64,000 nucleotides of DNA from Silvibacterium acidisoli (GTDB taxonomy: Bacteria; Acidobacteriota; Terriglobia; Terriglobales; Acidobacteriaceae), in NCBI GenBank assembly GCA_022870745.1, contig CP085323.1, positions 2,480,001 through 2,544,000 on the forward strand, in the 5' to 3' direction. The translations under genes and the position numbers were made by a program. Positions 1,181-18,199 of the stretch are shown here, one piece after another; positions within the stretch are counted from its first letter, which is position 1, and every line of letters begins with the position of its first letter. The notes under the pieces are model-generated. The model was not told the origin of the DNA. It saw only the letters and a list, made by a program, of their open reading frames with translations, and made no database searches.

Positions 1181-1831
1181 TCAGTTTGTGAGAACGTTGC
1201 TCGAAATCGTAACAACGCCTGTATCCTGAAATTCTTTCTCTATCGTTTCGAGTGAGTCTCCTGTGTCGATGGCTCGAGACGCATCCTTGATCACGATCGC
1301 CTCGAACCCCAGTCGCCGCGCGTCGATGGCAGAAAATCCCACGCAGAAGTCGTAAGCCAATCCCGCAAGAAAGACTCTTCTGAACTGCCGCTCGCTCAGA
1401 TAGCCCGCAAGCCCGGTCGAAGTCTTCCGGTCGTTCTCGAAAAACGCAGAGTAGGAGTCGATCTCCTTGCGAAAGCCCTTGCGCAGAATCAGCTCTGCCT
1501 TCGGAATGTGCAGGGAAGATACAAGTTCTGCGCCGGAGGTTTTCTGGACGCAGTGATCGGGCCACAGCGTCTGCTTGCCGTAGGAGACATCGCCGCTCTC
1601 AAACGGCGCTTTGCCGGGATGAGTAGATGCAAAGGAGAGATGGCCGGCAGGGTGCCAATCCTGCGTGAGGATGACATGCTCGAAGCTCCCGGCAATCCGG
1701 TTGATGAGTGGAACCACAGCTTCGCCATCCGGCACCGCGAGCTTTCCACCGGAACAGAAGTCATTCTGGACGTCGATGACCAGCAGGACATCATCGGGGC
1801 GCACATCGATGGCAGAGGATGTCATTTTCAC
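1181..1831 (-). CDS. pncA: Nicotinamidase (isochorismatase family)
   Basis: A 216-residue cysteine hydrolase converting nicotinamide to nicotinate for NAD salvage. Family motifs are present: catalytic Asp in IDVQNDFCSGG, the metal-binding stretch QDWHPAGHLSFAS, the catalytic Lys region (LRKGF), WPDHCVQ and the nucleophile Cys in LAYDFCVGFSA. Length fits the family. The GTG start at 1831 overlaps the stop codon of the upstream larA gene by 4 bases (GTGA), indicating translational coupling; an ATG two codons further in (1825) is an alternative start. The coupling to a lactate racemase is unusual in theme. It may only reflect operon packing. Confidence 0.92.
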   Translation of the reverse strand: MKMTSSAIDVRPDDVLLVIDVQNDFCSGGKLAVPDGEAVVPLINRIAGSFEHVILTQDWHPAGHLSFASTHPGKAPFESGDVSYGKQTLWPDHCVQKTSGAELVSSLHIPKAELILRKGFRKEIDSYSAFFENDRKTSTGLAGYLSERQFRRVFLAGLAYDFCVGFSAIDARRLGFEAIVIKDASRAIDTGDSLETIEKEFQDTGVVTISSNVLTN

Positions 1832-3102
1832 TCAGACTTGGCGCGGGCGTAGGCGTATGGTCCATCAGGAACAACCGCGACCGTTGCACCAGCCGGCAAG
1901 CCTTCCAGCAGATTCGCAATGGCTGCAGCGGCAGTGGAGAAGGCATTCTGCGCCATGCCGCCAAGCTCGGCGGATGGAATTCCGGGGACATAAAACGAAA
2001 CCGGATTCCGCAGCGAGACCATGGCAAGCTTCTCCAATTGCCACTGATCGATCTCTACAGGCGTGTTGGCGATCTCGTCGAGGAACTCCTGTGGACCTTT
2101 GTAGCCACGAACCTTATTTGCGAACTCGGGCGAGCCGACGCCTTCCTGGCATTCGCTGACAATCAGGATCTTGCCGCCGGGCTTTACAAAATGCTGCACC
2201 GCGGTGACGCCCTTCACCGTCTGGTAGAAGGTCATGTCGAGCGGATAGCCCGCGGCGCTGGTAATTACAGCATCCACGAGGCCGGGCAGCTCCTTGAGCG
2301 ATGAGCTGCGTAGAAAGTTCACGCCTGCAGCATGGGCCTGCACGGGATCGCCGGCGAAGATGCCGGTGATGTTGCGAGCCTTGTCGAGCGTGACATCGAG
2401 CATGAAGTGATGCCCTGCCATCGCCGCAATCTCCAGCAGTTCGGCATGGAGCGGGTTGTTCTCGATAGAGCCTTCCGTGGCGAGGCTCTCGCGCATGAAG
2501 CGCGGCGAATGGATGGTCTTGATCGTCTCCTGGCCTGCTACTCCCGGCGCAACCAGTTTCCTGCCGCCTGAGAAGCCGAGCATCAGGTGCTGCTCGATAA
2601 AGCCGAGCGTAATGTGCAGGTCGGCATCGAGCAGGCCACGGTCGATGTAGACCGGCGTACCGCGCTTCGTTGTACCGATGAAGCGATTGTCTTCTGTCGA
2701 GCGCGCATCGTGGTTCACGATACGGTACGTGGCTGCAATCTCAGGCCCAAGAATGGTGTCGAGCTCTTCCGGCGTTGCGGGACGATGGAGCCCGGTCGCG
2801 ATGAGAATGGTGATGTCTTCACGCACGATGCCAGCCCGCTGCAGCTCCGCAAGCAGAGGCGGAAGCGTGACGCGATTCGGAGCGGGTCGTGTGATGTCGC
2901 AGACGGAAATGGCTGCAGACTTCCTGCCTCGCGCCAACTCCGCGAGTGCAGGGCTGCCTATCGGATTTTTCAACGCGTTCACGATCGCGGCCGGTGCATC
3001 GTCGACTGGGACCGCATCGTGAACGTTGATCACCTGATAGTTCGGGCCTTCCGGCAGGTCAAGCTTTAGTCCGCTCTTTCCAAATGCGACAGCGATTTCC
3101 AT
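1828..3102 (-). CDS. larA: Nickel-pincer lactate racemase family protein
   Basis: A 424-residue LarA-family protein interconverting D- and L-lactate (or a related 2-hydroxyacid). The residues that hold the nickel-pincer nucleotide cofactor in Lactobacillus LarA (H108, H174, K184, H200) appear here as H106 (GLHRP), H172, K182 (FSGGRKLVAPG) and H198 (TIHSP), all with the same offset of two. No larB, larC or larE cofactor-synthesis genes are in the window. The neighbouring divergent lactate permease supports a lactate role. The minus-strand hexamer GATAAT lies 6 bases before the ATG and no Shine-Dalgarno is visible, so the mRNA may be leaderless. Other LarA homologues racemise different hydroxyacids, so the substrate is inferred from context. 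Confidence 0.88.
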   Translation of the reverse strand: MEIAVAFGKSGLKLDLPEGPNYQVINVHDAVPVDDAPAAIVNALKNPIGSPALAELARGRKSAAISVCDITRPAPNRVTLPPLLAELQRAGIVREDITILIATGLHRPATPEELDTILGPEIAATYRIVNHDARSTEDNRFIGTTKRGTPVYIDRGLLDADLHITLGFIEQHLMLGFSGGRKLVAPGVAGQETIKTIHSPRFMRESLATEGSIENNPLHAELLEIAAMAGHHFMLDVTLDKARNITGIFAGDPVQAHAAGVNFLRSSSLKELPGLVDAVITSAAGYPLDMTFYQTVKGVTAVQHFVKPGGKILIVSECQEGVGSPEFANKVRGYKGPQEFLDEIANTPVEIDQWQLEKLAMVSLRNPVSFYVPGIPSAELGGMAQNAFSTAAAAIANLLEGLPAGATVAVVPDGPYAYARAKSE

Positions 3103-3146
3103 ACGCTCATTATCCCACGCAGTGAGACATCAAGCCGCATCGTGCC

Positions 3147-3175
3147 TTGACACGATTGGTCCGACCAAATAACGT
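3147..3175 (+). promoter_or_regulatory. lctP promoter with LldR-like operator in the spacer
   Basis: A perfect -35 box TTGACA (3147-3152) is followed after exactly 17 bases by TAACGT (3170-3175), a partial -10. The spacer contains the palindrome TTGGTCCGACCAA (3156-3168), which has 5-base arms and a 3-base centre. FadR-subfamily GntR repressors such as LldR bind palindromes of the TTGG-N-CCAA / TNGT-N3-ACNA type, so this is a good candidate lactate-responsive operator. A repressor bound here would block RNA polymerase directly. No GntR-type gene lies in the window, so the regulator would act in trans. Confidence 0.7.
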
Positions 3176-3212
3176 GGGAGGGCCTCATAGACTGGCTGTT
3201 GAGAGCGCTTCC

Positions 3213-4868
3213 GTGATCTGGAACCAGACATATATTCTCTTTGGTCACGGACTGCTTTTCTCCGCGGCCATTGCTTCGCTTCCGATCGTCACCCTGCTGC
3301 TGCTGTTAGGAGTGATGCGGAGGCCTGCATGGCTCGCCGGGCTTATCGGACTGGCTGTTTCGTTGCTCGTCGCCGTCTTCGCCTATGGGATGCCTTTGCA
3401 TCTTGCCTGGAGCGCCGCGGCCTATGGCGTTGCGTTTGGACTCTTCCCCATCTCATGGATCATCTTCTGGGCCATCGCGCTCTTTCGCCTGACGGTGGAG
3501 ACGGGCCGCTTCGACATCATCCGCGATTCCGTTGCCAGGCTGAGCCCCGATCCTCGTCTACAGGCCCTGCTCATCGCGTTTGCATTCGGTGCATTCCTCG
3601 AAGGCGGCGCAGGCTTTGGAACGCCGGTTGCGATTGCCGCGACCATGCTGGTGGGACTCGGTTTCTCTCCGTTCAGCGCTTCGGCTATCTGTCTGCTTGC
3701 GAATACCGCTCCGGTCGCCTTCGGATCGATCGGCATTCCAATCGTGACGCTGGCCGCAACCACTGGCCTGCCGGTCAATGACTTAAGCGTCGCTGTCGGG
3801 CGTACATGTGCGCCGCTTTCCATGTGGATCCCTCTTTACGTGATCGTGGCGACGGCTGGATGGAAGTCGCTCAAGGGAATAGTAGTGCCGGTGATCGGGC
3901 TGGGCGTGGTTTTCGCGGGAGTACAGTTTGCTGTCTCGAATTTCCTGGGACCGCAACTCGCCGATATCCTCGCTTCGCTTTCCTCGATAGCCGCTTTGCT
4001 GGTTTATCTGCGTACGGCCAGGACCGAAGCCATCGCCCTGTCGGACGAAATTCGTTACTGCCTTGAGGATTCGGGGGCGGCTCCGCCGGCTCTGCCTTCC
4101 CTTCCCAGGGCCCACAGCGTGAAGCAGATTCTCAGCGGCTGGATGCCCTATGGATTCCTCGTGGCTTGCGTGCTGCTGTGGGGCCTGGCTCCGGTTCAGG
4201 CGTGGCTGAACTCTTTCACTGTGACCGTCGGTTGGCCGGGCCTGAACGACCTTATCGGACGAGTGCCGCCGATCACGCTGAAGGCAACGCCATACCACGC
4301 GCTCTACAATCTGAACCTGCTCTCAGCTGCGGGCACAGCATGCATGGCAGCGACGCTGCTTACAGCGGTCGTAGCACGGGTGTCGCCGCTTCGCTTCTGT
4401 AAGCTGATCGCTGCGGTTGCATGGCAGCTCGCGTTGCCCATCCTCACGATCGTATCGGTTCTGGCAATTGCCTTCGTGATGAACTACTGCGGCGCAACGG
4501 CAACGCTGGGGCTTACCTTCGCAGCGACCGGAGCGATGTTCCCATTCTTCAGTGCCATGCTCGGGTGGCTGGGCGTTTTCCTGACGGGGTCTGACACCGC
4601 ATCCAATGCTCTCTTCGGGAATCTGCAGGTCGTTACTGCGGGAAGACTGTCACTGAGCCCCGCTTTGATGGCTGGCGCAAACTCCACCGGCGGCGTGATG
4701 GGAAAGATGATCAGCCTGCAGACGATTGCTGTTGCGGCGGCTGCGACAGGACTTGCCACGACGCAACAATCAAGATTGTTTCGGTTTACGCTGAAACATA
4801 GCCTTCTGCTCGCAGGCGCCACCGGCCTGCTGGCGATGATTTATACATACGCGTTTCACATGAGATAG
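3213..4868 (+). CDS. lctP: L-lactate permease
   Basis: An integral membrane lactate:proton symporter of the LctP/LldP family with about 12-14 hydrophobic segments. Hallmarks include FGAFLEGGAGFGTPVAIAA, NTAPVAFGSIGIPI, GWLGVFLTGSDTASNALF and GKMISLQTIAVA. The GTG at 3213 is preferred as start: it gives VIWNQTY, aligning with the LldP N-terminus, yields 551 residues (the length of E. coli LldP) and has GAGAG eight bases upstream. The longer reading from TTG 3147 would begin inside the -35 box. It is divergent from larA and 15 bases ahead of the dehydrogenase gene, forming a lactate uptake module. Confidence 0.95.
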   Translation: MIWNQTYILFGHGLLFSAAIASLPIVTLLLLLGVMRRPAWLAGLIGLAVSLLVAVFAYGMPLHLAWSAAAYGVAFGLFPISWIIFWAIALFRLTVETGRFDIIRDSVARLSPDPRLQALLIAFAFGAFLEGGAGFGTPVAIAATMLVGLGFSPFSASAICLLANTAPVAFGSIGIPIVTLAATTGLPVNDLSVAVGRTCAPLSMWIPLYVIVATAGWKSLKGIVVPVIGLGVVFAGVQFAVSNFLGPQLADILASLSSIAALLVYLRTARTEAIALSDEIRYCLEDSGAAPPALPSLPRAHSVKQILSGWMPYGFLVACVLLWGLAPVQAWLNSFTVTVGWPGLNDLIGRVPPITLKATPYHALYNLNLLSAAGTACMAATLLTAVVARVSPLRFCKLIAAVAWQLALPILTIVSVLAIAFVMNYCGATATLGLTFAATGAMFPFFSAMLGWLGVFLTGSDTASNALFGNLQVVTAGRLSLSPALMAGANSTGGVMGKMISLQTIAVAAAATGLATTQQSRLFRFTLKHSLLLAGATGLLAMIYTYAFHMR

Positions 4869-4883
4869 CGAAGAGGAGCGGAT

Positions 4884-5774
4884 ATGGCAAAACTTGGTTT
4901 TATTGGCCTGGGAATTATGGGCGGTCCAATGGCGCAGCATTTGATCAAGGCCGGCCACCAGGTAGCGCTTTGGTCTTACAGTGCAGAGAAGGCCGAGAAG
5001 CTGGCTGGTAGCGGAGCCGCCGCATGCAAGACACCCGCGGAAGTTGCACAGCAAAGCGAATGCGTCTTCCTTTGCGTGGGCGACACGAAGATGTCCCGCG
5101 AAGTCATTCTCGGCAAGGATGGATTGGTGAACGGCGCTCAGAAAGGCCTTGTGATCGTTGACTGCAGCACTGTATCGCCTGCAGAAAGCCGCCAGATTTC
5201 CGCCGAGTTGAAGCAGAAGGGAATCGACTTTCTCGACGCGCCGTGTACAGGTTCACGGGCGGGCGCGGAGAATGCGACTCTGACCTTTATGGTGGGTGGG
5301 GATTCTGCTGTCTTCGAAAAGACGAAGCCCTATTTCCAGGTGATGGGCAAGCAGCTTTACTACTGTGGTGAAAGCGGCATGGGGCTGCAGGCCAAGCTTT
5401 CGCAGAACATGATCCTCGGCAACCTGCTGCAGGCCTTCAACGAGAGCCTTGTGTTGAGCACCAAGGGAGGAGTGCCTCCGGAGCTCATGCTCGAGATCCT
5501 CGACAACAGCGCAGCGAAATCAGGGCTGATTACCGCGAAGGCCCCATTCGTTCTCGCCCGCGACTTCTCGACGAAGTTCTCTGTGAAGTGGCTGGAAAAA
5601 GATATGGGCTTGATGCTCGACTCTGCTGCCGAGCTGAATGTTCCCGCGCCTCTCACGGCCTTGTCGCGCCAGCTCTATCGCGCCGCAATTGCGAAGGGCT
5701 ACGGGGAAGAAGATATCTGCGGATCGATTCGGGTTCTTGAGGAGATTGCCGGTTGCGAGGTCAGCAAGAAGTAG
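4884..5774 (+). CDS. NAD(P)-dependent beta-hydroxyacid dehydrogenase (GarR/GLYR/HIBADH family)
   Basis: A 296-residue oxidoreductase. The Rossmann motif GFIGLGIMGGPMA opens the protein, the substrate-binding signature FLDAPCTGSRAGAENATLTFMVGG lies near residues 115-137, and the catalytic Lys is in GLQAKLSQNMIL near 172. Such enzymes reduce tartronate semialdehyde, glyoxylate or succinic semialdehyde, or oxidise 3-hydroxyisobutyrate. A GAGGAG ribosome site precedes the ATG, and the gene starts 15 bases after lctP, so the two are probably co-transcribed. The context suggests handling of short hydroxyacids, but the substrate cannot be fixed from sequence. Confidence 0.9.
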   Translation: MAKLGFIGLGIMGGPMAQHLIKAGHQVALWSYSAEKAEKLAGSGAAACKTPAEVAQQSECVFLCVGDTKMSREVILGKDGLVNGAQKGLVIVDCSTVSPAESRQISAELKQKGIDFLDAPCTGSRAGAENATLTFMVGGDSAVFEKTKPYFQVMGKQLYYCGESGMGLQAKLSQNMILGNLLQAFNESLVLSTKGGVPPELMLEILDNSAAKSGLITAKAPFVLARDFSTKFSVKWLEKDMGLMLDSAAELNVPAPLTALSRQLYRAAIAKGYGEEDICGSIRVLEEIAGCEVSKK

Positions 5775-5777
5775 CCG

Positions 5778-7580
5778 TCAGTTACATGCGTCGGTGGTGA
5801 AGGAGGGCTGAGACGTTGACTTCTGCCGGCATATGAATCGCATCAGGTCGTCGTAGGGCATGGGGCGCGCGATGAAATATCCCTGCGCCTCATCGCAGCC
5901 GGCCTGCTGCACCCTTTTCCACTCATTTGCCGACTCTACTCCTTCGGCAAGCAAGGGGATGCACACTTCGCGCGCGAACGCGGTCATTGCTTCGAGCACT
6001 CGCGCCCGGTGCTTCGACATGTTGACGAAAAACTTGTCGAGCTTGATCCGGTTGATCGGATACCGCAGCAGGTAATGCATGTTCGAGTAGCCGGTTCCGA
6101 AATCATCGATGCTGATGCCTACGCCGATATGCCGCAATTCACGAAGATTCTTCTTCGTAGTGTGGCAGTCTTTCATCAGCACGCGCTCGGTGATTTCTAT
6201 CTCCATGCAATCCGGAGGCAGTCCGCCGTTCTTCAATGCGGTCTTGACTGTCTGTACAAAATCCTCGGTATCGATCTGTTGCGGAGTTACGTTAACAGCC
6301 AGCCGGATATCTTTGCCGAATGCCTTTCGCAATGAAGCTGCCTGCTCGCATGCGTGATCCACAACCCACTGTCCAAGCGGGAGAATGACATTGCTCTGTT
6401 CCGCGATAGGGATAAAGTGCGCGGGCGGCACCAGTGTGTCACTGTGCTTCCATCGCAGCAGAGCTTCGACGCCGCTGACTTCACCACTGCGCAACGCCAC
6501 GATTGGCTGATACACGAGAGTCAACTCATCGCGTGGAATCGCCGCGCGCAATGCGCGCAGAAGCGCTGGCGGGCTGGACAGCGCTTCGCTTGTGATTGCT
6601 GCTGCCTTCTTGTCGACCACAAAAGAAGGAAGGGCGGTCGACCGGTACCATTCCACCGTTCGCTTCAGGCCCTCTTCGAACGGCACAGCAGGTTTGTAGC
6701 CAAAAGCTTCGTTCGCCGCGGTAATGTCAGACAGGGAACTGCTTGCTTCGTCCGCAAGCGCAGGAACCTTGACCGCACAGCTTTGATAGCCGGTAAGTCT
6801 GGCGATATTGCGAAACGTTTCATCGATACTGTGTGACTGCCCGCTTCCGATGTTGAACGAGCGGCCGGCAACGCGGTCCGCGGGAGCGTGCATAGCCGCG
6901 AGATTCGCGGCTACTACGTCGTCGATGTAGACAAAGTCACGCGACTGCTCGCCACTGCCAAGAATCGTGAGCTGCTCTGCGCCGCCGCATTCGAGCATTT
7001 GCGAAACAAAGCGGGCGATCACGCCGGAATGTGGAGACGACGAGTTTTGCCGTGGCCCGAAGACGTTAAAGTAACGAAGTGTCACGGTCTCCAGCCCGTG
7101 AAGGATAAAGGCGCTTGAGAGCATCTGCTCTGAGGCAAGCTTGTGGATGGCAAAGGGAGACAGCGGATGCGGCGAGTAGTTTTCCTTCAGCGGGAGAGCC
7201 GGTTGGTTGCCATAGACGGCGGACGATCCAGCGAAGACGATACGTCTTACATCGTGTTTGCGCGCAGCCTCAATCAGTCTCCCGGTGCCCGTCAGGTTTA
7301 CATCGAGAGTGCCCAGCGGATCCTGGATACTCTGCTCGGCCGACGCGATGGCCGCCTGATGAAAGACGTAGTCGATACCCTTGCAGGCGTCTTCCACGTC
7401 TTCCTGCTGGCGCATGTCGCCGAAGCGCAGCTCGATGCGATCGACCAGATCGGTAAGATTGCCGATCGAGCCAGTCGAGAGATTGTCAAAGCAGCGAACC
7501 TTGTCGCCCCGTGCGACCAGGGCGCGAACGAGGGACGAGCCGATAAAGCCGGCGGCGCCCGTAACGAGATAGTTGGCCAT
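5778..7580 (-). CDS. Fusion: UDP-sugar epimerase-like SDR domain + EAL c-di-GMP phosphodiesterase
   Basis: One uninterrupted 600-codon frame holds two domains. Residues 1-315 form an extended SDR of the UDP-glucose/UDP-GlcNAc 4-epimerase type (TGAAGFIGSS at 7-16, AGSSAVYG at 117-124, RYFNVFGPRQN near 169-179). The catalytic YxxxK is FAIHK: residue 143 is Phe (codon TTT at 7154-7152) while K147 is kept, so ordinary epimerase chemistry is unlikely. Residues 340-585 form an EAL domain with the expected catalytic set: EALLRW at 372, N430, EITER, DDFGTGYS at 492, K516 and K-containing KLDK, E546 in AEGVES and Q566 in QGYFIARP. A UDP-sugar- or NAD-sensing phosphodiesterase is inferred. The gene is divergent from the hydroxyacid oxidase and convergent with the dehydrogenase. 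Confidence 0.9.
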   Translation of the reverse strand: MANYLVTGAAGFIGSSLVRALVARGDKVRCFDNLSTGSIGNLTDLVDRIELRFGDMRQQEDVEDACKGIDYVFHQAAIASAEQSIQDPLGTLDVNLTGTGRLIEAARKHDVRRIVFAGSSAVYGNQPALPLKENYSPHPLSPFAIHKLASEQMLSSAFILHGLETVTLRYFNVFGPRQNSSSPHSGVIARFVSQMLECGGAEQLTILGSGEQSRDFVYIDDVVAANLAAMHAPADRVAGRSFNIGSGQSHSIDETFRNIARLTGYQSCAVKVPALADEASSSLSDITAANEAFGYKPAVPFEEGLKRTVEWYRSTALPSFVVDKKAAAITSEALSSPPALLRALRAAIPRDELTLVYQPIVALRSGEVSGVEALLRWKHSDTLVPPAHFIPIAEQSNVILPLGQWVVDHACEQAASLRKAFGKDIRLAVNVTPQQIDTEDFVQTVKTALKNGGLPPDCMEIEITERVLMKDCHTTKKNLRELRHIGVGISIDDFGTGYSNMHYLLRYPINRIKLDKFFVNMSKHRARVLEAMTAFAREVCIPLLAEGVESANEWKRVQQAGCDEAQGYFIARPMPYDDLMRFICRQKSTSQPSFTTDACN

Positions 7581-7661
7581 GTTTAAGCAACCCGGGAATA
7601 ATCTGGGCGAATCGTGATGCCAGGACTGCGGTAAGTTCGCTATGCTTTCGGGAAAGCGAGG

Positions 7662-8768
7662 GTGAACGTGGATATCTCTGCCAGATCAATGTTGCTCTGC
7701 CTGGACGACTATGAGGTTACGGCTCGGGAGCTGCTCAATAAGGCGGCCTATGAATATATCGCCAGTGGCGCAGCAGACGAGAAAACGCTGAAGGCAAATC
7801 GTGCAGCCTTCGATGAAATCGAAATTCTCCCGCAGGTTCTTGTGGATGTCAGTTCCATCGATACATCCCGCACCATCTTTGGAAGAAAGCATGATTACCC
7901 GATACTGCTCGCCCCTACCGGATACCATCGGCTGTTTCACGAGAGGGGTGAGATCGAGTCGGTGTACGGGGCAAATCGCAGCAACACCACGCTGATTGCC
8001 TCCACGTTCAGCACGGTTTCCTTCGAGGCGATGCAGCGGGCTTCTGCTGCTCCCCTGTGGTTTCAGCTTTACATGCAGCGCGACCGCGGATTCACGCGCG
8101 AACTTGTGCGGCGGGTAACGGAAGCGGGTTGTGAAGCAATCTGCCTGACAGTGGACCTGGCGGTAAATTCACCCCGCGATCGTGAGCTACGTGCCGGCTT
8201 TGAATTGCCGGCCGGCATGGTGCGCGAAAATCTTATAGACATGGGCAGAGAGACGGCCAGTGCGGCGCATAGCGGTGGCGTGGGCATGCTTTACAACCAG
8301 GTGAGAGCACCCAACGTTACCTGGAAAGATGTGGAATGGTTGCGCGATGAACTGACCATCCCGCTTCTGTTGAAAGGAGTGCTGCGCCCTGAAGATGCGG
8401 AGACGGCGCGGCAGTTGGGTTGCGATGGCGTCATCGTTTCGAACCACGGTGGTCGCGCACTCGACGGCGTGCCTTCCACGATGAGTATGTTGCCTAAGAT
8501 CGCAGACAAGGTAGGAGGCAGCCTGGCTCTTTTTCTCGATGGCGGAATTCGCCGCGGCACGGACGTCTTTGCCGCCCTGGCAATGGGAGCGGATGCCGTA
8601 ATGGTCGGCCGTTCCTACCTCTATGCATTGGCAGTAGACGGAGCAGAGGGCATTGAGCGGATGATGGCGATTTTGAAGACGGAGTTCGAAATGGCCATGG
8701 GGCTTGCGGGCTGCACCGCCCTCTCGACTATTGAGAGGGCGATGTTGCAGATGAGGCCAGCCCGTTGA
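7662..8768 (+). CDS. FMN-dependent alpha-hydroxyacid oxidase/dehydrogenase (LldD/lactate oxidase family)
   Basis: A 368-residue TIM-barrel flavoenzyme oxidising an L-2-hydroxyacid such as L-lactate or glycolate to the 2-oxoacid. The catalytic His and Arg lie in SNHGGRALDGVPSTM, and the FMN phosphate-binding end is LDGGIRRGTDVFAALAMGADAVMVGR. The N-terminal ELLNKAAYEYIASGAADE is typical of the family. The GTG at 7662 has GCGAGG just upstream; an ATG at 7689 is possible. Together with LctP and LarA it would complete uptake, racemisation and oxidation of lactate. Mandelate or glycolate oxidase activity remains possible. Confidence 0.9.
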   Translation: MNVDISARSMLLCLDDYEVTARELLNKAAYEYIASGAADEKTLKANRAAFDEIEILPQVLVDVSSIDTSRTIFGRKHDYPILLAPTGYHRLFHERGEIESVYGANRSNTTLIASTFSTVSFEAMQRASAAPLWFQLYMQRDRGFTRELVRRVTEAGCEAICLTVDLAVNSPRDRELRAGFELPAGMVRENLIDMGRETASAAHSGGVGMLYNQVRAPNVTWKDVEWLRDELTIPLLLKGVLRPEDAETARQLGCDGVIVSNHGGRALDGVPSTMSMLPKIADKVGGSLALFLDGGIRRGTDVFAALAMGADAVMVGRSYLYALAVDGAEGIERMMAILKTEFEMAMGLAGCTALSTIERAMLQMRPAR

Positions 8769-9845: not shown

Positions 9846-11021
9846 TTACAGCTCGAATCCCTGTTGATGATCGTTGAGGACGATATCGCGAATCTCCGTA
9901 CAGATCGCGGTGATCGTCTGATCGGACAATGACTCGTAAATCGGAAGATTCACCACTCCTTCGGAGACGTGTTCTGTCACAGGAAGCGGAAGGTCGGTCG
10001 AGTGATGATACGAACTGAAGATCTTTTGCTGGTGCAGAGGGGGATAGTAATAGCGCTGGGTCGGCACGCTGCGTTTGTGCAGCAGGTAGCAGAGCCGATC
10101 GCTGCTCAGCTTACGGTTGGGAACAATGTGCAGTGAGAAGTCCTTGTATGTGGACACATTGTCCCCGCGAACATGCTGGAAAGTGATGCCTGGCAGATCG
10201 CTGAGAAGGCGCGTGTACATCTGTGCGATCTCGTTGTGCCGGATGATTTTCTTCTTAAGCAGCGGCATGCCGGATATGGCCAGGGCCGCGTTGAACTCGG
10301 ACATTCGTGCGTTAAGACCCTGCAACTCCGGATCATACCCACCGAGATCCCCGTAGTTACGTGCAGCGCGGAGCCGCCGGGCCAGGAACGAATCGTCTGT
10401 TGTAACCAGGCCGCCCTCGCCGGCTACCAGCAGCTTGGTGGGTGAGAGTGAAAAGACCTCGGCGTCGCCGAAGGTGCCGATCGGCTTGCCCTGCTGTGTG
10501 CTGCCGAAAGCGTGCGCGGAGTCGAAGATCAGCTTGAGATCGGATCGCGACGCGATACGAGTAAGCGATTCGGTATCGGCTGGATTGCCGTGAATGTGTA
10601 CGCCGAGGATGGCTGTCGTTCGTGAAGTGATGCGCCGGGCCACGTCGAGCGGATCGATGTTCCAGGTGTCGGGCTCGCAATCGGCAAACACCGGGCGGAT
10701 GCCGTTCCAGAGCAGGGCTTCACCCGAAGCAGAAAACGTGAATGATGGAACGATGACTTCGCCTGCGATGCCGAGCGCTTTGAAGACAAGCATTAGTCCG
10801 GATGTACAGCTCGAGACGGCGACACAGTGTTTCACGCGCAGCCGTTCCGCGACAACGCTCTCCAGCCTTTCAACAAGCTCCGCATTCGTAATCAGCCCGG
10901 ACTTGTAAACTTCCCGGTAGAGGGAAGCCACATCTTCCCACGCGGGAAGAGTCGGCTGCATGAAACGCAGCGATGGGGTCTGTCGCTCGCGAGCGATAGC
11001 CGGCATGATTAAAGGATTCAT
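9846..11021 (-). CDS. DegT/DnrJ/EryC1/StrS-type sugar aminotransferase
   Basis: A PLP-dependent aminotransferase acting on a keto-sugar nucleotide. Motifs include SSCTSGLMLVFKALGI, VIVPSFTFSASGEAL, LIFDSAHAFGS and the PLP-binding Lys in SLSPTKLLVAGEGG (about K196). The ATG at 11021 is preferred: it begins MNPLIMPAIARER and gives 391 residues, the usual family length, whereas the longer frame adds a basic tail without homology character. It is last in the operon upxY - methyltransferase - aminotransferase, which suggests production of an amino sugar for an exopolysaccharide or O-antigen. Confidence 0.9.
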   Translation of the reverse strand: MNPLIMPAIARERQTPSLRFMQPTLPAWEDVASLYREVYKSGLITNAELVERLESVVAERLRVKHCVAVSSCTSGLMLVFKALGIAGEVIVPSFTFSASGEALLWNGIRPVFADCEPDTWNIDPLDVARRITSRTTAILGVHIHGNPADTESLTRIASRSDLKLIFDSAHAFGSTQQGKPIGTFGDAEVFSLSPTKLLVAGEGGLVTTDDSFLARRLRAARNYGDLGGYDPELQGLNARMSEFNAALAISGMPLLKKKIIRHNEIAQMYTRLLSDLPGITFQHVRGDNVSTYKDFSLHIVPNRKLSSDRLCYLLHKRSVPTQRYYYPPLHQQKIFSSYHHSTDLPLPVTEHVSEGVVNLPIYESLSDQTITAICTEIRDIVLNDHQQGFEL

Positions 11022-11137
11022 AGAGCCCCCAGTTGAAATGAGAAGTCGTTTCCGATTGAGAAAGTGCTGCCCCGTGCAGATGTGCGGGCCATGCACGATG
11101 GCTTTATTTCCGGAAACGGCGTTGAGTCAGAGACTGT

Positions 11138-11845
11138 TCAGTGCTTCTTTGGCTTCGCGAGCACCATTAAGGAAAAACCGCCAAGAATCAGGGCCGCTGC
11201 ATCCGGATGCATTTTGAAAAAGAGTTGCCGTGGCAGCTTCGCCAAGGCTGTGCGCAAAGATCGTGCAGGCCGCTCGGTTGTGGTACCGGTATATCGCCAG
11301 TCGATAACGTCAAAGCCGCATTCTTCCATCACATCGAGAAAGAGTGGACGGGTGAAATAGTGGAGATGTCCGGCGGTCTTTCTCAACGTCTGCGGAAGAC
11401 CGCGTATCAGTGCCTGCACGGAAAGATCCAGCGGCATGTGCACAATGCAGTAACTCGCTCTTTCACGCAGTGAACGCAGAAAGCGGAAGTAGTCGTCCAC
11501 ATGCTCCACGATGTCGAGTGCGAGCACCAGGTCGCAGTGCCCGACAGCGTGGCTGTCCGAGTCGCCCATAACAAAGCCCAGGCGATCGTTCACTCGATTG
11601 AGGCACGCTGCAAATGCCTGCGGAGAGACTTCAAGGCCGATAAACCTGCAATGCGATGGCAGTGCCTTCTGCATCTCCACCAATACCTGGCCCGAACCAC
11701 AGCCGATCTCACAGATCAACTCCGGATCAATTCTGTTCTTCCTGAGAAGCGACAATGCATGCGTGGCTTTCCATGCGGAGTCTTCCAAATGCCATGAGGG
11801 GCGCAGGTTCTCGTAGTGTCCAACGGTATAGAGCGCTGACGCCAT
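11138..11845 (-). CDS. Class I SAM-dependent methyltransferase
   Basis: A 235-residue methyltransferase with motif I EIGCGSGQVLVEM, the acidic end of strand 2 (GLEVSP) and motif DLVLALDIVEHVDDYFRFLRSL. This form is common in polysaccharide and glycan-modifying clusters. Its position between the NusG paralogue and a sugar aminotransferase suggests it methylates a sugar or glycan intermediate. The substrate is unknown. A GTG- or ATG-proximal start is consistent with the family. Confidence 0.85.
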   Translation of the reverse strand: MASALYTVGHYENLRPSWHLEDSAWKATHALSLLRKNRIDPELICEIGCGSGQVLVEMQKALPSHCRFIGLEVSPQAFAACLNRVNDRLGFVMGDSDSHAVGHCDLVLALDIVEHVDDYFRFLRSLRERASYCIVHMPLDLSVQALIRGLPQTLRKTAGHLHYFTRPLFLDVMEECGFDVIDWRYTGTTTERPARSLRTALAKLPRQLFFKMHPDAAALILGGFSLMVLAKPKKH

Positions 11846-11974
11846 TTCAGAATCGAATCTCTTTTATGTGCCGTGTCTGATCGCCGTCAATCGGCACTGG
11901 TTGATGTGAGCGAGAACGCGGTCGCCAAACGCAACTGCGGAGGGGCGTGGAGGCAGCAGGATACGGAACGTTTG

Positions 11975-12544
11975 TCAGGCTGGATTGCGTTGTATCACGA
12001 TGTCGTCGTATTGCACTTCCACACTCACCGAGCGATTGAGCATCGCAACTGACAGGATGAGCCGTGTCTGGTTCTGTATTCTTTCGAGAATTCCTTCAAG
12101 GCCCGCAAGCGGCCCAGTTTTCAGACGCACTTTATTCCCAATCACAAGACGCGGAATTGACTCCATATGAGCCTTGCTCGCGACGGCAATACGAATCGCT
12201 TCTATCTCCGCTGTATCGACTTCCAGCAGCGTTTTCCCTGAGCTGACGATGCCGAGCACGCCGGGAACCTGCAGCACCGGAAGCCTGTTCTCCGGATTAA
12301 GCCGGCAAAAGATGTAGCCCGGAAACAACGGCACTTCCACGCGCTTTTTCCGGTCTGCCCAGCGATGCACTTCCATGGTCTTTGGGGAGAAAATCTCGTA
12401 GGACTTCGAAGTCAGCGACGTTTCGCACCGATAGAGATCGCGTTGCCGTATCTGTAAGGCAAACCAGGGATAGATCGGTTCTGTCCTGGGGGTCTCGATC
12501 ATTCCGGAAAGGCCGATGTCGTTTTTGGGGCAAGCTACCGCCAT
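11975..12544 (-). CDS. UpxY/RfaH-type NusG paralogue (transcription antiterminator)
   Basis: A 189-residue specialised NusG. The NGN domain (residues 24-115) reads YPWFALQIRQRDLYRCE... with VEVPLFPGYIFCRL and VLGIVSSG, and the C-terminal KOW motif is IGNKVRLKTGPLAGLEGIL. UpxY and RfaH proteins travel with RNA polymerase through long polysaccharide operons and suppress termination. Here it leads a short operon with a methyltransferase and an aminotransferase, fitting a cis-acting polysaccharide regulator. Its first codons contain an ops-like sequence (separate entry). Confidence 0.88.
   Translation of the reverse strand: MAVACPKNDIGLSGMIETPRTEPIYPWFALQIRQRDLYRCETSLTSKSYEIFSPKTMEVHRWADRKKRVEVPLFPGYIFCRLNPENRLPVLQVPGVLGIVSSGKTLLEVDTAEIEAIRIAVASKAHMESIPRLVIGNKVRLKTGPLAGLEGILERIQNQTRLILSVAMLNRSVSVEVQYDDIVIQRNPA
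12530..12542 (-). promoter_or_regulatory. ops-like element at the start of the NusG paralogue
   Basis: Read on the minus strand from the G of the start codon, the sequence is GGCGGTAGCTTGC. It matches the enterobacterial ops element GGCGGTAGCGTGC at 12 of 13 positions. In E. coli, ops pauses RNA polymerase and recruits RfaH, a NusG paralogue. Finding it in the first codons of a NusG-paralogue gene is suggestive of autoregulatory recruitment. UpxY specificity need not follow ops, so a chance match to the coding sequence is possible. Confidence 0.35.
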
Positions 12545-12815: not shown

Positions 12816-13757
12816 TCACTGTGGCCAGGGAGCCAGTCCTTCCGGAGACCAGGCGGCGATGATAACTCTGGCTATCTTCGCAATCGTTATTTCACCTTCC
12901 TGCTCTGCCCCCCATGAATGATCGGCATTGTCATAAGTGAACGCCGAGATTACGACCATTCCCTGTTTTGTCGAAACTGCGCCGACATCGTTTCGTACTG
13001 CTTCGAGCGACCCGGTTTTGTTGGCAATTGACTCTTCGGTGGCTCCCGGCAATGTGTCCAGATAACGCGGAATGCCGCCGCGGTAGAACTGCAGGTGCAG
13101 CATCTTCTGGGCAGCCCCGCACAATGCGCGATCCTCGGGTTTCGCTGGTGCGCCGAGCTGGCAGGTTGCCAGGCGCGTCATCAAGGTGGCCATCTCGCGT
13201 GCGGTCGTCTTGCCAAGCCCAAAGCGTTTCTGGTCTTCAGGCATAGTTACGCCCGGTGGAACAGGGGTGAAGATCTTTTTATAAAGATAGGTGTTGTTCA
13301 GCCCGAGGGCCGCGATGGTTTTATCGATGTTTTCGATTCCAAGATGATCGATGGCGAGGTTCGTCGCCGTGTTGTCGCTCATTACGATCATCATGGTGAG
13401 CGCATCTTTGAACGTGATCCTGGTGGGGGTATCGAGAAAGAGCAGAACGCCCGACCCCGGAACCTGGTCTTTAGACGATAGTGCGATCGGGTCGGAGAAG
13501 CTGGCCTTGCCTTCCCGTATTTGTCGCAGTGCCTCGTACAGAATTGCGAGTTTGATGACCGATGCCGTCTGAACAGGCTCGTCGGGGTGAATGGCAACAG
13601 TCTCGTGAGTGCGCAGGTTCTCCGCGTAGAGCGTCACGTGCCCGCGGTGTGACTCGGCGATCTGGTTTACCTGTTGCTGCAGCGCGCCAATGTCGGCTGC
13701 ATCCGCAGGCTTGAACGTACAAAAAAACAGCAGCACAAGAAGGCCCGGAATCCGCAT
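12816..13757 (-). CDS. Beta-lactamase class A-like serine hydrolase, exported
   Basis: A 313-residue secreted protein with a signal peptide (MRIPGLLVLLFFCTFKPADA, cleavage near 20). The penicilloyl-serine transferase motifs are complete: S66-V-I-K69, S127-D-N129 and K247-T-G249. The omega-loop E166-x-x-L-N of classical class A enzymes is not visible: the equivalent segment is about KKIFTPVPPGVTMPEDQKRFG. Without that general base, deacylation of penicillins should be poor, so a DD-peptidase-like or other serine hydrolase role is possible. It is divergent from the phytochrome gene. Confidence 0.8.
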   Translation of the reverse strand: MRIPGLLVLLFFCTFKPADAADIGALQQQVNQIAESHRGHVTLYAENLRTHETVAIHPDEPVQTASVIKLAILYEALRQIREGKASFSDPIALSSKDQVPGSGVLLFLDTPTRITFKDALTMMIVMSDNTATNLAIDHLGIENIDKTIAALGLNNTYLYKKIFTPVPPGVTMPEDQKRFGLGKTTAREMATLMTRLATCQLGAPAKPEDRALCGAAQKMLHLQFYRGGIPRYLDTLPGATEESIANKTGSLEAVRNDVGAVSTKQGMVVISAFTYDNADHSWGAEQEGEITIAKIARVIIAAWSPEGLAPWPQ

Positions 13758-13914: not shown

Positions 13915-16257
13915 ATGTCAGTCGAAATGAGCTTGGGCGACACCGCTACCGTAGACCTAACAAACTGTGATCGAGAGCCGATTCATATTCCCGGCAGTAT
14001 CCAGAGCCACGGCTTCCTGCTCGGCCTGAAGCTGCAGCCGGATGGACGATTGCACGTCGTTACCGCCAGTGAGAACGCAGCCCAGTACCTCTCGCTTCCG
14101 CTCGATCGCATTCTCGACGCAGAGTTGAACAACCTCGTAGAGCACGACCTCGTCGAGGCTCTTCATAAGGGGTTGCTCTCGGAAGGTTCAGCTGGAGATT
14201 TCGTTCGTTTCATCGGCACTGCCCGTCTGCCTGTTAGTGGAAGTCAACGGCACGATTTTCAGATCGTAGGGCATCGTCTTGCCGAACTGTTCATCCTTGA
14301 GTTTGAACGCACCGAGCACTCGGTAAGCCAGGCCGAGTTGAATGCTGTCCTCTCGAACTTTGTCGGCTCGATTGAAGAGCTCGATGATCGTACAGCGCTC
14401 TGCCAGGCGGTCACCTCGCAGATACGCGCTCTTACCGGTTTCGATCGCATTATGCTGTATCAGTTCGACGAAGAAGGCCATGGCACCGTTCTGGCTGAGG
14501 ATAGAAATGACAAGCTGCCTTCTTACCTCGGACTTCATTTTCCGGCGACCGATATTCCGCAGCAGGCGCGCGCCCTCTATGTTCTGAATCGCATCCGCAT
14601 CATCCCCGATGTCGATTACGAACCGTCGCCTTTGCTCTCCGTGCCGGAGATGAAAGACGCGCCGCCACTCGATCTTTCTTTGTCGATTCTGCGCAGCGTT
14701 TCGCCGATTCATCGCGAGTACATGCGAAACATGGGCACCGTCTCATCCATGTCCATCTCGTTGGTCACTGAGGGCCGCCTCTGGGGGCTTATCTCCGGCC
14801 ATCATCACGAACCGCGCACGGTTCCGTACCTGGTCCGCTCAGCCTCTGAGGTCCTCAGCCGCATCACCACCTCGCATCTGCTCGCTCTCCATCGCTCGTC
14901 GCAGATGGCCCATGCGATTCGTCTCAAGTCGGTGCACGGCCAACTGCTCTCTTTCATGGCGGCTGGCGAGAACTACATCGACGGCCTCGCCCGGCATCCG
15001 GTAGAGTTGCTTGCCGTTACCGGTGCACAAGGCGCTGCTATCGTCGTCGGCGAGCGTTGCATCCTGCTGGGCAAAACACCGTCTCAGCAGGCGGTGCTTG
15101 CGTTTGCGCAGTGGTTCTCAAAACGCGGCCGCGAGGACGTCTTTGCCACCAACCAGATTGAATTGGAATGCGGAGAGGTTGAAGAGCTTCGGACTGAAGC
15201 CAGCGGCATCCTGGCGATCTCGCTTTCCCAGGTGCATCGCATGCAGATTCTATGGTTCCGGCCGGAGATCCTGCAGACGGTGCAGTGGGCCGGTGAGCCT
15301 GCGAAGAGCGAGGAGTTTGTCAACGGTGTCCGTCAGATCCATCCCCGCAATTCCTTCTCGTCGTGGAAGGAGATTGTTCGGGGCAAATCGCTTGCCTGGA
15401 CATCGGTTGAGATCGAATCAGCCAGGGAATTCCGCAGCATCGTGCTCGAAATTGTGCTGAAGCGTGCCGAAGAGCTGGCGGAGATGGCCTCTGAGCTGGA
15501 GTCTTCGAACCGTGAGCTTGAGGCATTCTCCTATTCGGTATCGCATGACCTGCGGGCGCCATTCCGCCACATCTCGGGTTTTGCGGAATTACTGCTGGAG
15601 AACGAAGCATCGCGCCTGAGCGACACGGGCCGCCGCCACCTCGCCACCATAGCGCAGTCAGCACAGTTCGCGGGCCTGCTGGTGGATAGCCTGTTGAATT
15701 TCTCCCGCATATCGCGCACGCAGTTGGAGATCCACTCCATGGCGATGAAGCCGCTGGTGGAGGATGTGTGGCGCGATGTCGTGCAACAGGAGATTGGAGA
15801 GAGGCAGGTTGAAATGGTCATCGGCGACCTGCCTGTCGTCGAAGCGGACCTGAACCTGCTGCGGCAGGTATGGCGCAACCTCATCTCCAATGCGGTGAAA
15901 TATACCCGCCCCTGCGATCACGCCCGAATCGAAGTCAGTTGTGAGCAGACTCCCGACGAGTACGTTTTTGCCGTACGTGACAACGGGGTTGGATTTGAGG
16001 GCGAGTACGCGCATAAGCTCTTCGGCGCATTCCAGCGGCTGCATCGAATGGAAGAATTCGAAGGCACAGGTATTGGCCTGGCGAACGTCCGCCGCATCAT
16101 AGCAAGGCACAACGGAAGAACCTGGGCGACCGGGGAGGTAGGAAAGGGTGCGGTCATCTCTTTCAGCCTTCCGGCCGTTCAATCTATAAGCCGTCGTGGC
16201 TCAGTTCCCGATTCGGAGGGAACCGAAGCCCCGCAAACACCGAAACTGGACGCTTGA
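13915..16257 (+). CDS. bphP: Bacteriophytochrome histidine kinase
   Basis: A 780-residue red/far-red photoreceptor. The biliverdin-attachment Cys is C18 in DLTNCDREPIHIPGSIQSHG, followed by the PAS domain. The GAF domain (about 140-310) has the PATDIP motif near 209-214 and SGHHHEP. The PHY domain carries the tongue motif PRNSF near 476-480. The kinase core has the H-box SVSHDLRAPFRH with H544, N-box NLISNAVKYT, and the G-boxes DNGVGFEGEYAHKLF and GTGIGLANVRRI. All features of an active light-regulated kinase are present. The next gene (4 bases on) encodes a receiver protein and the operon ends with heme oxygenase, which makes biliverdin. Confidence 0.97.
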   Translation: MSVEMSLGDTATVDLTNCDREPIHIPGSIQSHGFLLGLKLQPDGRLHVVTASENAAQYLSLPLDRILDAELNNLVEHDLVEALHKGLLSEGSAGDFVRFIGTARLPVSGSQRHDFQIVGHRLAELFILEFERTEHSVSQAELNAVLSNFVGSIEELDDRTALCQAVTSQIRALTGFDRIMLYQFDEEGHGTVLAEDRNDKLPSYLGLHFPATDIPQQARALYVLNRIRIIPDVDYEPSPLLSVPEMKDAPPLDLSLSILRSVSPIHREYMRNMGTVSSMSISLVTEGRLWGLISGHHHEPRTVPYLVRSASEVLSRITTSHLLALHRSSQMAHAIRLKSVHGQLLSFMAAGENYIDGLARHPVELLAVTGAQGAAIVVGERCILLGKTPSQQAVLAFAQWFSKRGREDVFATNQIELECGEVEELRTEASGILAISLSQVHRMQILWFRPEILQTVQWAGEPAKSEEFVNGVRQIHPRNSFSSWKEIVRGKSLAWTSVEIESAREFRSIVLEIVLKRAEELAEMASELESSNRELEAFSYSVSHDLRAPFRHISGFAELLLENEASRLSDTGRRHLATIAQSAQFAGLLVDSLLNFSRISRTQLEIHSMAMKPLVEDVWRDVVQQEIGERQVEMVIGDLPVVEADLNLLRQVWRNLISNAVKYTRPCDHARIEVSCEQTPDEYVFAVRDNGVGFEGEYAHKLFGAFQRLHRMEEFEGTGIGLANVRRIIARHNGRTWATGEVGKGAVISFSLPAVQSISRRGSVPDSEGTEAPQTPKLDA

Positions 16258-16261
16258 ATAC

Positions 16262-16723
16262 ATGCTTAAGCCAATTTTGCTGGTGGAAGACAACCCCAAC
16301 GATCTCGAGCTGAGCCTTGCAGCGCTCGCCAAGAGCGGTCTTGCGAATGACGTGATCGTCGCCCGGGACGGTGCGGAAGCCAGGGATTACCTTTTCTGCA
16401 CCGGCGTTTACGCTGGCCGGCCTGCGGGCCTGCCCGCAGTAGTTTTGCTTGATCTCAAGCTGCCCAAGGTGGATGGACTCGAGTTGCTTCACATCATCCG
16501 CAACAGCCCTGAAACGAATCGTCTGCCGGTCGTCATCCTCACCTCGTCCCGTGAAGAGAGCGACGTTGCTTCCGGTTATCGCCTGGGCAGCAATGCGTAT
16601 GTAGTCAAACCTGTAGAGTTTTCGGCATTTTTCAAAGCCATTCAGGATTTAGGGATATTTTGGGCGGTATTGAATGAACCGCCCCCGGTTCCCCGAGGAA
16701 AGCCGAACAATGGGCAGCAGTAA
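16262..16723 (+). CDS. Single-domain response regulator (Rcp1-like, phytochrome partner)
   Basis: A 153-residue receiver without output domain. It starts at ATG 16262 (MLKPILLVEDNPNDLEL), four bases after the phytochrome stop; a longer upstream reading would overlap bphP. The acidic pair ED is at 9-10, the phosphoacceptor is D64 in VVLLDLKLPK, the switch Thr is in VILTSS near 94 and the conserved Lys is K116 (YVVKPVEF). This is the form of cyanobacterial Rcp1 proteins that accept phosphate from phytochromes. It ends 14 bases inside the next gene, indicating coupled translation. Confidence 0.95.
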   Translation: MLKPILLVEDNPNDLELSLAALAKSGLANDVIVARDGAEARDYLFCTGVYAGRPAGLPAVVLLDLKLPKVDGLELLHIIRNSPETNRLPVVILTSSREESDVASGYRLGSNAYVVKPVEFSAFFKAIQDLGIFWAVLNEPPPVPRGKPNNGQQ

Positions 16724-18197
16724 CACACTAGAAAAACAATATTTATTTCTCCATCTTGAAGACAATCCACTGGACGCCGAGTTGACTGTCAGCCGTCTCT
16801 CTGCCGCCGGAATTTCGTGTGGCGTGACGGTGGTTTCTTCACGAACGGCATTTGAAGAAGCCTTCGCGAATGGAAGCTTTGACCTGGTTCTCGCCGACTA
16901 TTCTCTGCCCGATTTCGATGGTCTTGCCGCGCTGAAAATTGTCCGGCAAATTTCAGCGCGCATCCCGTTCATCTTCGTCTCCGGAGTCCTTGGAGAAGAC
17001 GTTGCAGTGGAAACGCTGCTCTCCGGGGCAACCGATTATGTGATCAAGCAGAAGATGGATCGCCTTGTTCCTGCCGTCCTTCGTGCGCTTTCCGAGCACG
17101 AGGAATACAAGTCGCGCCAGCGGGCTGAGGTTGAGGCCCGCGAAGGTGAAGAGCGATTCAAGAAGCTTACCAACAGTCTGCCCGCGATGGTGTGGACCTG
17201 CGATCTCGAGGGCAGGCTGACCTATACCAACCTGCAGTGGGATCGCAATGTCGGCGGCGCAAAGCTCTGGTGCGATCCTGAGATTATCCATGCGTCCGAT
17301 TTGGAAGTCTGCGAAGCTCTCTGGTCAGGAGCCCAAAAGCAGCAGGAGCCTTTCGAGGTGGATTGCCGTTTCAGGATGCGCAACGGCGAGTATCGCTGGA
17401 ACCTTGTCTGGGCAGCGCCTATCCATAACGACAAGAAACAGGTAACGGGATGGGTGGGCACCTGCACGGATACCGAGCAGCAGCGCTTTCGCGACGCCCA
17501 GTTCCGGACCGCCGAGAAGCTCGCCCTTACCGGTCGCATGGCTTCCGTCATCGCACACGAGATCAACAATCCGCTCGAAGCAATGACGAATCTCTTCTAC
17601 CTGCTTCGTAACGAAGTAGAGGCCACAGAGAAAGGCCAGGTTTATTTCTCGCAGGTAGAGCACGAGCTTCTGCGCATCTCCACCATTACGAAGCTTACCC
17701 TGCAATGGTCCCGCGAGGGCGGCATGGTTACGCGTCAGCGCGCGGTGAGCCTTGTCGATGAAACCCTGCGCCTCTTCCAGGGAAAACTGGCGAACCGCAA
17801 CATTCATCTCGACAGAGAGATCGAAGATGTGGAGTTCTTCGCCGTCGGTGGAGAGATCCGCCAGGTGCTTGCGAACCTGCTGAGTAATGCCATCGATGCA
17901 GTCGATCTTGGGGGGCACATCACCCTGGGTGCAAGATCGCTGCAACGGGACGGGATTCAATTCGTAGAGCTGTCCGTGCAGGACGACGGTGCGGGGATCG
18001 AACCCGAACGTCTGCCCGCTCTTTTCGGTCCGTTCCACAGCACCAAGGGTGCTCTCGGCAACGGCCTGGGCCTCTACATCTCGAAGGAAATCGTAGACCG
18101 CCATGGCGGACAGCTCATTCCAGAATCGACCGTAGGGCTCGGCACCACCATGCGCGTTCTTCTTCCGGCAAATCAGCCCGGCACGGCGAAGGAGTAG
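16710..18197 (+). CDS. Hybrid sensor kinase: receiver - PAS - HisKA - HATPase
   Basis: A 495-residue protein. The N-terminal receiver has D63 (LVLADYSLPDFDG) as phosphoacceptor, a PAS domain spans about 150-265, the phosphoacceptor His is H283 in SVIAHEINNPLEAM, and the ATP-binding core has NLLSNAIDAV, DDGAGI and GNGLGLYISKEI. The ATG at 16710 is chosen because GAGGAAA lies upstream; an ATG at 16674 would add 12 residues. Receiver-first architecture lets the kinase be an effector of an upstream kinase such as the phytochrome. Genes on both sides overlap or nearly abut, so the four-gene operon is well supported. Confidence 0.93.
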   Translation: MGSSNTLEKQYLFLHLEDNPLDAELTVSRLSAAGISCGVTVVSSRTAFEEAFANGSFDLVLADYSLPDFDGLAALKIVRQISARIPFIFVSGVLGEDVAVETLLSGATDYVIKQKMDRLVPAVLRALSEHEEYKSRQRAEVEAREGEERFKKLTNSLPAMVWTCDLEGRLTYTNLQWDRNVGGAKLWCDPEIIHASDLEVCEALWSGAQKQQEPFEVDCRFRMRNGEYRWNLVWAAPIHNDKKQVTGWVGTCTDTEQQRFRDAQFRTAEKLALTGRMASVIAHEINNPLEAMTNLFYLLRNEVEATEKGQVYFSQVEHELLRISTITKLTLQWSREGGMVTRQRAVSLVDETLRLFQGKLANRNIHLDREIEDVEFFAVGGEIRQVLANLLSNAIDAVDLGGHITLGARSLQRDGIQFVELSVQDDGAGIEPERLPALFGPFHSTKGALGNGLGLYISKEIVDRHGGQLIPESTVGLGTTMRVLLPANQPGTAKE

Positions 18198-18199
18198 CT

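Follow-up and report, generated by a model that had tools for sequence, protein, structure and literature searches.

What does an epimerase-like SDR domain do at the front of a protein that ends in an EAL domain? The question is raised by one gene of Silvibacterium acidisoli, which lies in a 64,000-nucleotide stretch of the genome (the window; assembly GCA_022870745.1, contig CP085323.1, positions 2,480,001 to 2,544,000 of the forward strand). Many c-di-GMP enzymes answer to unknown signals, and to learn of a metabolic input for one of them would be progress. The SDR-EAL fusion described here has the look of a genuine, though uncommon, switch that senses metabolism.

Domains of the fusion protein

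The gene and its parts lie in the window as follows.

5778 to 7580, minus strand: SDR-EAL fusion ORF of 600 aa, in a single frame with an ATG start
6636 to 7580, minus strand: extended SDR domain, residues 1-315, of the GalE/PelX/WbpP type (Pfam Epimerase, fold matches)
6558 to 6635, minus strand: linker, about residues 316-341 (low pLDDT, poor conservation between this fusion and the second one described below)
5862 to 6557, minus strand: EAL domain, residues 342-573 (Pfam EAL, signature residues, BifA fold match)

The ORF and the Pfam matches bear out the preliminary description of this locus, in which one frame joined an epimerase-type SDR (residues 1-315) to an EAL domain: the Epimerase family covers residues 5-245 (E 4.8e-62) and the EAL family residues 342-573 (E 1e-69; 234.9 bits against a curated cut-off of 31.3). 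The score for the NCBIfam galE equivalog (TIGR01179) is 162.4 bits, below the cut-off of 262.3. Searches by fold matched the SDR part to UDP-hexose and UDP-GlcNAc 4-epimerases (PDB 4zrn, 6wjb from P. protegens, and 1sb8, which is WbpP), with 34-40% identity over the whole SDR part, and the EAL part to the EAL domain of BifA (8arv; 39% identity). We take the P. protegens enzyme 6wjb to be PelX, because the PelX of P. protegens Pf-5 is described as a UDP-GlcNAc C4-epimerase (PMC9135694). In the predicted structure (mean pLDDT 89.4) both domains are confident and linker residues 316-344 fall below a pLDDT of 50; at a pTM of 0.64, the prediction does not fix how the SDR and EAL domains lie with respect to each other. 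A linker this long and loose, as modeled, gives no hint of rigid coupling between the two domains.

Is the EAL domain, one of eight EAL matches in the host genome, likely to be active? All nine of its signature residues (E372, N430, E465, D492, D493, K513, E546, E549, and Q566), whose individual metal-, substrate-, and base-site roles we assume, equal the majority residue of 32 aligned EAL rows that include both fusions. The acidic and Lys residues reported earlier are thus all present. EAL domains that keep every signature residue are classed as active phosphodiesterases (PMC12900916), and the domain in the window is a predicted c-di-GMP phosphodiesterase.

An assembly error or chimera would explain the joined frame trivially. 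We rejected this explanation: the host genome is a single contig, 99.99% complete; a second fusion exists; and GC3 in the SDR part (0.682) and the EAL part (0.681) is no different from that of 13 other window genes, which span 0.626-0.702.

The SDR active site and its two ligand sides

The residues at issue in the SDR, with their counts in the SDR alignment, are these.

7152 to 7154, minus strand: codon TTT, which puts Phe143 where YxxxK has its catalytic Tyr
7140 to 7142, minus strand: Lys147 of YxxxK, kept (Lys in 30/30 SDR rows)
7224 to 7226, minus strand: Ser119, kept (Ser in 29/30 SDR rows, Thr in 1)
7338 to 7340, minus strand: Ala81 where homologs have Val (Val in 29/29 other SDR rows)
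6756 to 6758, minus strand: Leu275 in the RxG[D/E] motif (Arg or Lys in 25/29 other SDR rows; 4/29 without)
6750 to 6752, minus strand: Asp277 in the same RxG[D/E] motif (Gly in 27/29 other SDR rows)

Both the sequence and the alignments confirm what had been read from the letters: the catalytic Tyr is replaced by Phe143 (codon TTT at 7154-7152), while K147, S119, and S120 are present. We take Ser119 to be the catalytic Ser position. Across 120 loci with an SDR match, position 143 is Tyr in 116, Arg in 2, and Phe in 2; both Phe loci are fetched copies of the window locus itself, and hence Tyr stands in 116 of the 118 other loci and Arg in 2.

Does losing the Tyr make the SDR dead, as the preliminary description put it? 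The loss is real, but "strongly crippled" is the better term, and the changes exceed Tyr143. The Y149F variant of Bacillus cereus UDP-glucuronic acid 4-epimerase is reported to have retained NAD+ on purification, with activity ~1.2 x 10^3-fold lower (PMC7984243), and the titles of PDB entries 6wj9, 6zlj, and 8rdi name Tyr-to-Phe epimerase mutants with UDP-sugar-type or NAD ligands. Because these mutants hold ligands, loss of the Tyr alone leaves ligand binding in place. The host genome also encodes a separate, standalone SDR homolog with an intact YxxxK (L125; G000:C1:788932-789948; L190:8882-9907), so the fusion copy was free to lose catalysis.

The NAD side and the substrate side of the domain have fared differently. 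Conservation over 115 homologs reaches 93% or more at 40 positions; the window SDR keeps the usual residue at 38 of these and departs at two, V81A and Y143F. The NAD motif GxxGxxG and its acidic residue are intact (G8, G11, G14, and D32). On the substrate side, V81A is accompanied by R275L and G277D, positions 275 and 277 having been counted in a different alignment from the one behind the 115-homolog conservation count. By reference to E. coli GalE, we take an Arg at position 275 to be a UDP-phosphate contact. Because V81A, R275L, and G277D sit at conserved substrate-side positions, UDP-sugar binding by the window SDR is doubtful, and NAD(H) binding appears better supported than sugar-nucleotide binding, since the NAD motif is intact and the substrate side altered. 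The earlier expectation that the SDR should bind both NAD and a sugar nucleotide therefore keeps its first half, and its second is weakened by these three changes, which also lowered our estimate of a sugar-nucleotide sensor as the sole reading. The 46 closest homologs have 114 positions in common at a conservation of 95%; the window SDR differs at 25 of them, whereas no homolog exceeds 10 in a leave-one-out count. Some of these 25 departures reflect a position outside the homologs' clade, and some could reflect relaxed constraint. The standalone GalE/PelX/WbpP-type epimerases (4zrn, 6wjb, and 1sb8) thus resemble the window SDR in fold and NAD motif, whereas the window protein has a changed catalytic Tyr, V81, R275, and G277, plus a C-terminal EAL domain.

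A second fusion and the gene neighborhoods

Is the SDR-EAL architecture found elsewhere, and is the Tyr lost there too? We screened overlapping samples of 200 and 398 genomes from the family, 9 from the genus, 396 from the phylum, 397 from the order, 62 from the genus of the second fusion, and, with a two-row profile, 399 from the class. Among the matches listed, SDR-EAL fusions occurred in two genomes only. E-value limits of 1e-75 to 1e-115 applied in the screens of 398, 396, 397, 62, and 399 genomes, and at most three first-look candidates were scored per listed genome in those of 398, 396, 397, and 399, so distant fusions could be missed. No record among the 5000 best-scoring plasmid records had a place covering 80% of the query, and a search of genome contigs found no other fusion in 80 of 575 loci. 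The SDR match extends to residue 300 at 131 loci; apart from the two fusions, none of these has a C-terminal extension longer than 36 aa.

The second fusion (G767:C52:2178-4001; also L147:1501-3417; protein P0002, 638 aa) comes from a different genus of the same family and is 46% identical to the first. G767, the genome that carries it, is a draft in 150 contigs with 6% contamination, which makes the taxonomic assignment less certain than the sequence. The two proteins share 156 of 312 residues in the SDR, 3 of 25 in the linker (316-340), and 112 of 244 in the EAL domain. The search of SDR-EAL architectures at position 143 proposed in the preliminary description thus yielded a fusion with Tyr, Phe being found only in the window locus: the second SDR carries SPYATQK and ARPGE—that is, Tyr, Lys, Ser, and the RxGE motif are kept—and its EAL signature is intact. 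It departs from the 40 widely conserved positions at one, Q178T, and its TIGR01179 score of 178.5 bits is also below 262.3. Because this fusion keeps the Tyr and the Arg, a crippled SDR does not define the SDR-EAL architecture; it is the state of one member.

Did the two fusions arise once? They pair in the EAL tree with support of 100/99; the two changes counted there for the fusion group stem from L146, another copy of the window locus, which was left out of the group. They also pair in the SDR tree (99/92, with a long-branch warning; 93 in a first quick tree), and when either fusion is omitted the other is found at the same place, at the base of the family's standalone SDR clade. The simplest reading of these sequences would be one old fusion, with the Tyr then lost on the branch leading to the window. 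Terminal branches in the SDR tree measure 0.83 for the window protein and 1.40 for the Tyr-bearing one; because the former is not longer than the latter, there is no sign of faster decay after the loss of the Tyr.

How do the genes around the fusion bear on its function? The nearest features in the window are listed below.

1181 to 1831: nicotinamidase (over the NCBIfam cut-off)
1828 to 3102: LarA-like racemase (below equivalog cut-offs)
3147 to 4868, plus strand: LctP-family permease (Pfam Lactate_perm; passes the TIGR00795 subfamily cut-off but not those of the L-lactate and glycolate permease equivalogs)
4884 to 5774, plus strand: 3-hydroxyisobutyrate-dehydrogenase-like gene, convergent with the fusion and 3 bp away
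7581 to 7661: 81-bp gap between the fusion and the divergent FMN-dependent dehydrogenase gene, a possible common promoter region
7662 to 8768, plus strand: gene of the FMN-dependent 2-hydroxyacid dehydrogenase type, divergent from the fusion (Pfam FMN_dh over the cut-off; below the lactate dehydrogenase/oxidase NCBIfam cut-offs)

The stretch from 1181 to 8768 reads as an accessory lactate/2-hydroxyacid-type cluster that includes a nicotinamidase; lactate as the substrate of these genes is a guess from family names. In the eight other genomes of the genus, the protein of 4884-5774 had no match at E<=1e-60 and that of 7662-8768 had one, in a single genome (35% identity). A consensus scan of 5700-7900 gave three weak promoter-like matches, two of them overlapping on the plus strand at 7573-7602 and one on the minus strand at 7852-7824, against 0.9 expected, which is no evidence of function.

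The preliminary description had tied the fusion to exopolysaccharide (EPS) decisions. This link found no direct support: the neighbors are of the lactate/2-hydroxyacid type, for which reason we rejected an EPS-operon context, and PelG—the only component of EPS systems searched for—had no match in the host genome (the control search matched in 1 of 14 genomes). Around the standalone SDR of the host, no EPS cluster was apparent from reading the ORFs; one ORF nearby resembles, by reading, mannose-6-phosphate isomerase. A Crp-like, cNMP-binding gene and the divergent FMN dehydrogenase separate the fusion from a possible start of a surface-sugar cluster at 9846-12544 (minus strand), where a NusG-domain gene precedes genes for a methyltransferase and a DegT aminotransferase. 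The second fusion is flanked, again by reading, by an upstream ORF resembling glucose-6-phosphate dehydrogenase and a small downstream ORF. The neighborhoods of the two fusions point to no single pathway, though an NAD(H) sensor would be at home in a redox context.

Possible roles of the SDR

We propose, at what we judge to be even chances, that the window protein is an EAL c-di-GMP phosphodiesterase regulated by its N-terminal crippled GalE-type SDR, which would act as an NAD(H) metabolic or redox gate. The SDR most likely dimerizes and holds NAD(H); the NAD(H) state, possibly with a nucleotide sugar or another ligand in the altered pocket, would rearrange the two EAL domains, and this rearrangement would alter c-di-GMP hydrolysis through a putative allosteric coupling to the predicted phosphodiesterase. 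The rarity of the architecture counts against gating, as do the loose linker and the 25 departures from close homologs, which relaxed constraint could also explain.

Are there precedents for an SDR used in this way? NmrA is eukaryotic and acts on partner proteins. HSCARG/NMRAL1 and NmrA are described as SDR-fold regulators that sense NAD(P), a role proposed for MAT2B as well (PMC3793261); MAT2B and HSCARG are likewise eukaryotic and act on partner proteins, unlike the window SDR in not being fused to c-di-GMP enzymes, and MAT2B keeps its catalytic triad (PMC3793261). On the EAL side, BlrP1 (BLUF-EAL; PMC3989770) and DosP, the latter among the NCBIfam and PDB matches of the window protein, also place an N-terminal sensory module before a canonical EAL domain, and in BlrP1 the sensor is described as controlling the EAL domain via a conserved EAL dimer interface (PMC3989770). 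Their inputs, however, are BLUF or PAS domains, whereas that of the window protein is an SDR pseudo-epimerase and putative regulator.

The closest precedent, by domain description, is the PelD of Gram-positive bacteria. In the account of PMC7112168, Brevibacillus PelD starts with an SDR/UDP-glucose-4-epimerase-like domain that is predicted to work as an epimerase, whereas the N-terminal SDR of PelD from streptococci, clostridia, and actinobacteria has altered residues and is predicted to be inactive. PelD and the window protein thus share an epimerase-like SDR N-terminal to a c-di-GMP module, with a mix of SDRs predicted to be active and inactive. PelD, in contrast, is a c-di-GMP receptor (TM, GAF, degenerate GGDEF) encoded in pel loci. 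An SDR-bearing PelD has a GAF and a degenerate GGDEF domain after its SDR, in a pel locus; in the window an EAL phosphodiesterase domain follows the SDR, and the genome has no PelG match. By analogy with PelD and with MAT2B and NmrA, a regulatory role for the SDR is plausible, and the comparison with SDR-bearing PelD (PMC7112168) suggests that c-di-GMP modules have acquired epimerase-like domains on at least two occasions. An epimerase-like SDR joined to a c-di-GMP module was therefore already known. We found no SDR-EAL or epimerase-EAL fusion in the openly licensed literature (CC0/CC BY/CC BY-SA) searched, in the portions of it available, which does not imply absence from print; the main text of a c-di-GMP review (PMC10333796) contains none of the words "epimerase," "dehydrogenase," or "rossmann."

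How might such a gate have arisen? Since the second fusion keeps its Tyr, sensing by a noncatalytic SDR need not explain why the domains were joined. We hold tentatively, and at rather less than even chances, that a UDP-sugar epimerase was captured as a phosphodiesterase input domain and that in the window lineage the enzyme became an NAD(H)-dependent sensor through loss of the Tyr and of substrate contacts. If so, c-di-GMP would be controlled directly by the redox or carbon state of the cell, a counterpart to the SDR-bearing PelD receptors. The SDR-EAL pair, with the Tyr kept in one and lost in the other, offers a natural before-and-after set for studying the passage from metabolic enzyme to second-messenger sensor.

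Alternatively, the fusion may have begun as a bifunctional trigger enzyme, an active epimerase with a local phosphodiesterase; the second fusion would still be one, and the SDR of the window would be a relic or partial sensor. The Tyr, Lys, Ser, RxGE motif, and EAL signature of the second fusion speak for such a beginning, but its SDR activity is predicted from sequence, on a long branch and with the Q178T departure, and we consider this origin somewhat unlikely. Less probable still, though worth keeping in mind, is an SDR that merely pairs the EAL domains as a dimerization scaffold and senses no ligand. Extended SDRs are commonly dimers, and the substrate-side residues here are lost. A conserved dimer interface is described as central to EAL control (PMC3989770); a pure scaffold, however, would have no need of the NAD-motif residues that the domain has kept.

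Could the fusion have no present function and be drifting toward decay in an accessory region? Its rarity, the two flanking proteins (one unmatched elsewhere in the genus, the other matched weakly and once), and the 25 departures at positions conserved in close homologs would fit. We nevertheless regard decay as very improbable: 600 codons remain open, GC3 in both halves (0.68) lies within the range of the 13 other window genes, and the protein keeps all 9 EAL signature positions tested and 38 of the 40 SDR positions that are widely conserved. Finally, a single base change separates TTT from TAT, a Tyr codon, but a base-call error in an ordinary active epimerase is barely credible given that the same pocket carries independent changes at V81, R275, and G277 and that the one-contig genome is 99.99% complete.

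Farther along the window, an ORF resembling a class A beta-lactamase-type serine hydrolase lies at 12816-13757 (minus strand), and a bacteriophytochrome-like kinase, response regulators, and a heme-oxygenase-like ORF stand in a row at 13915-18769, all by reading.
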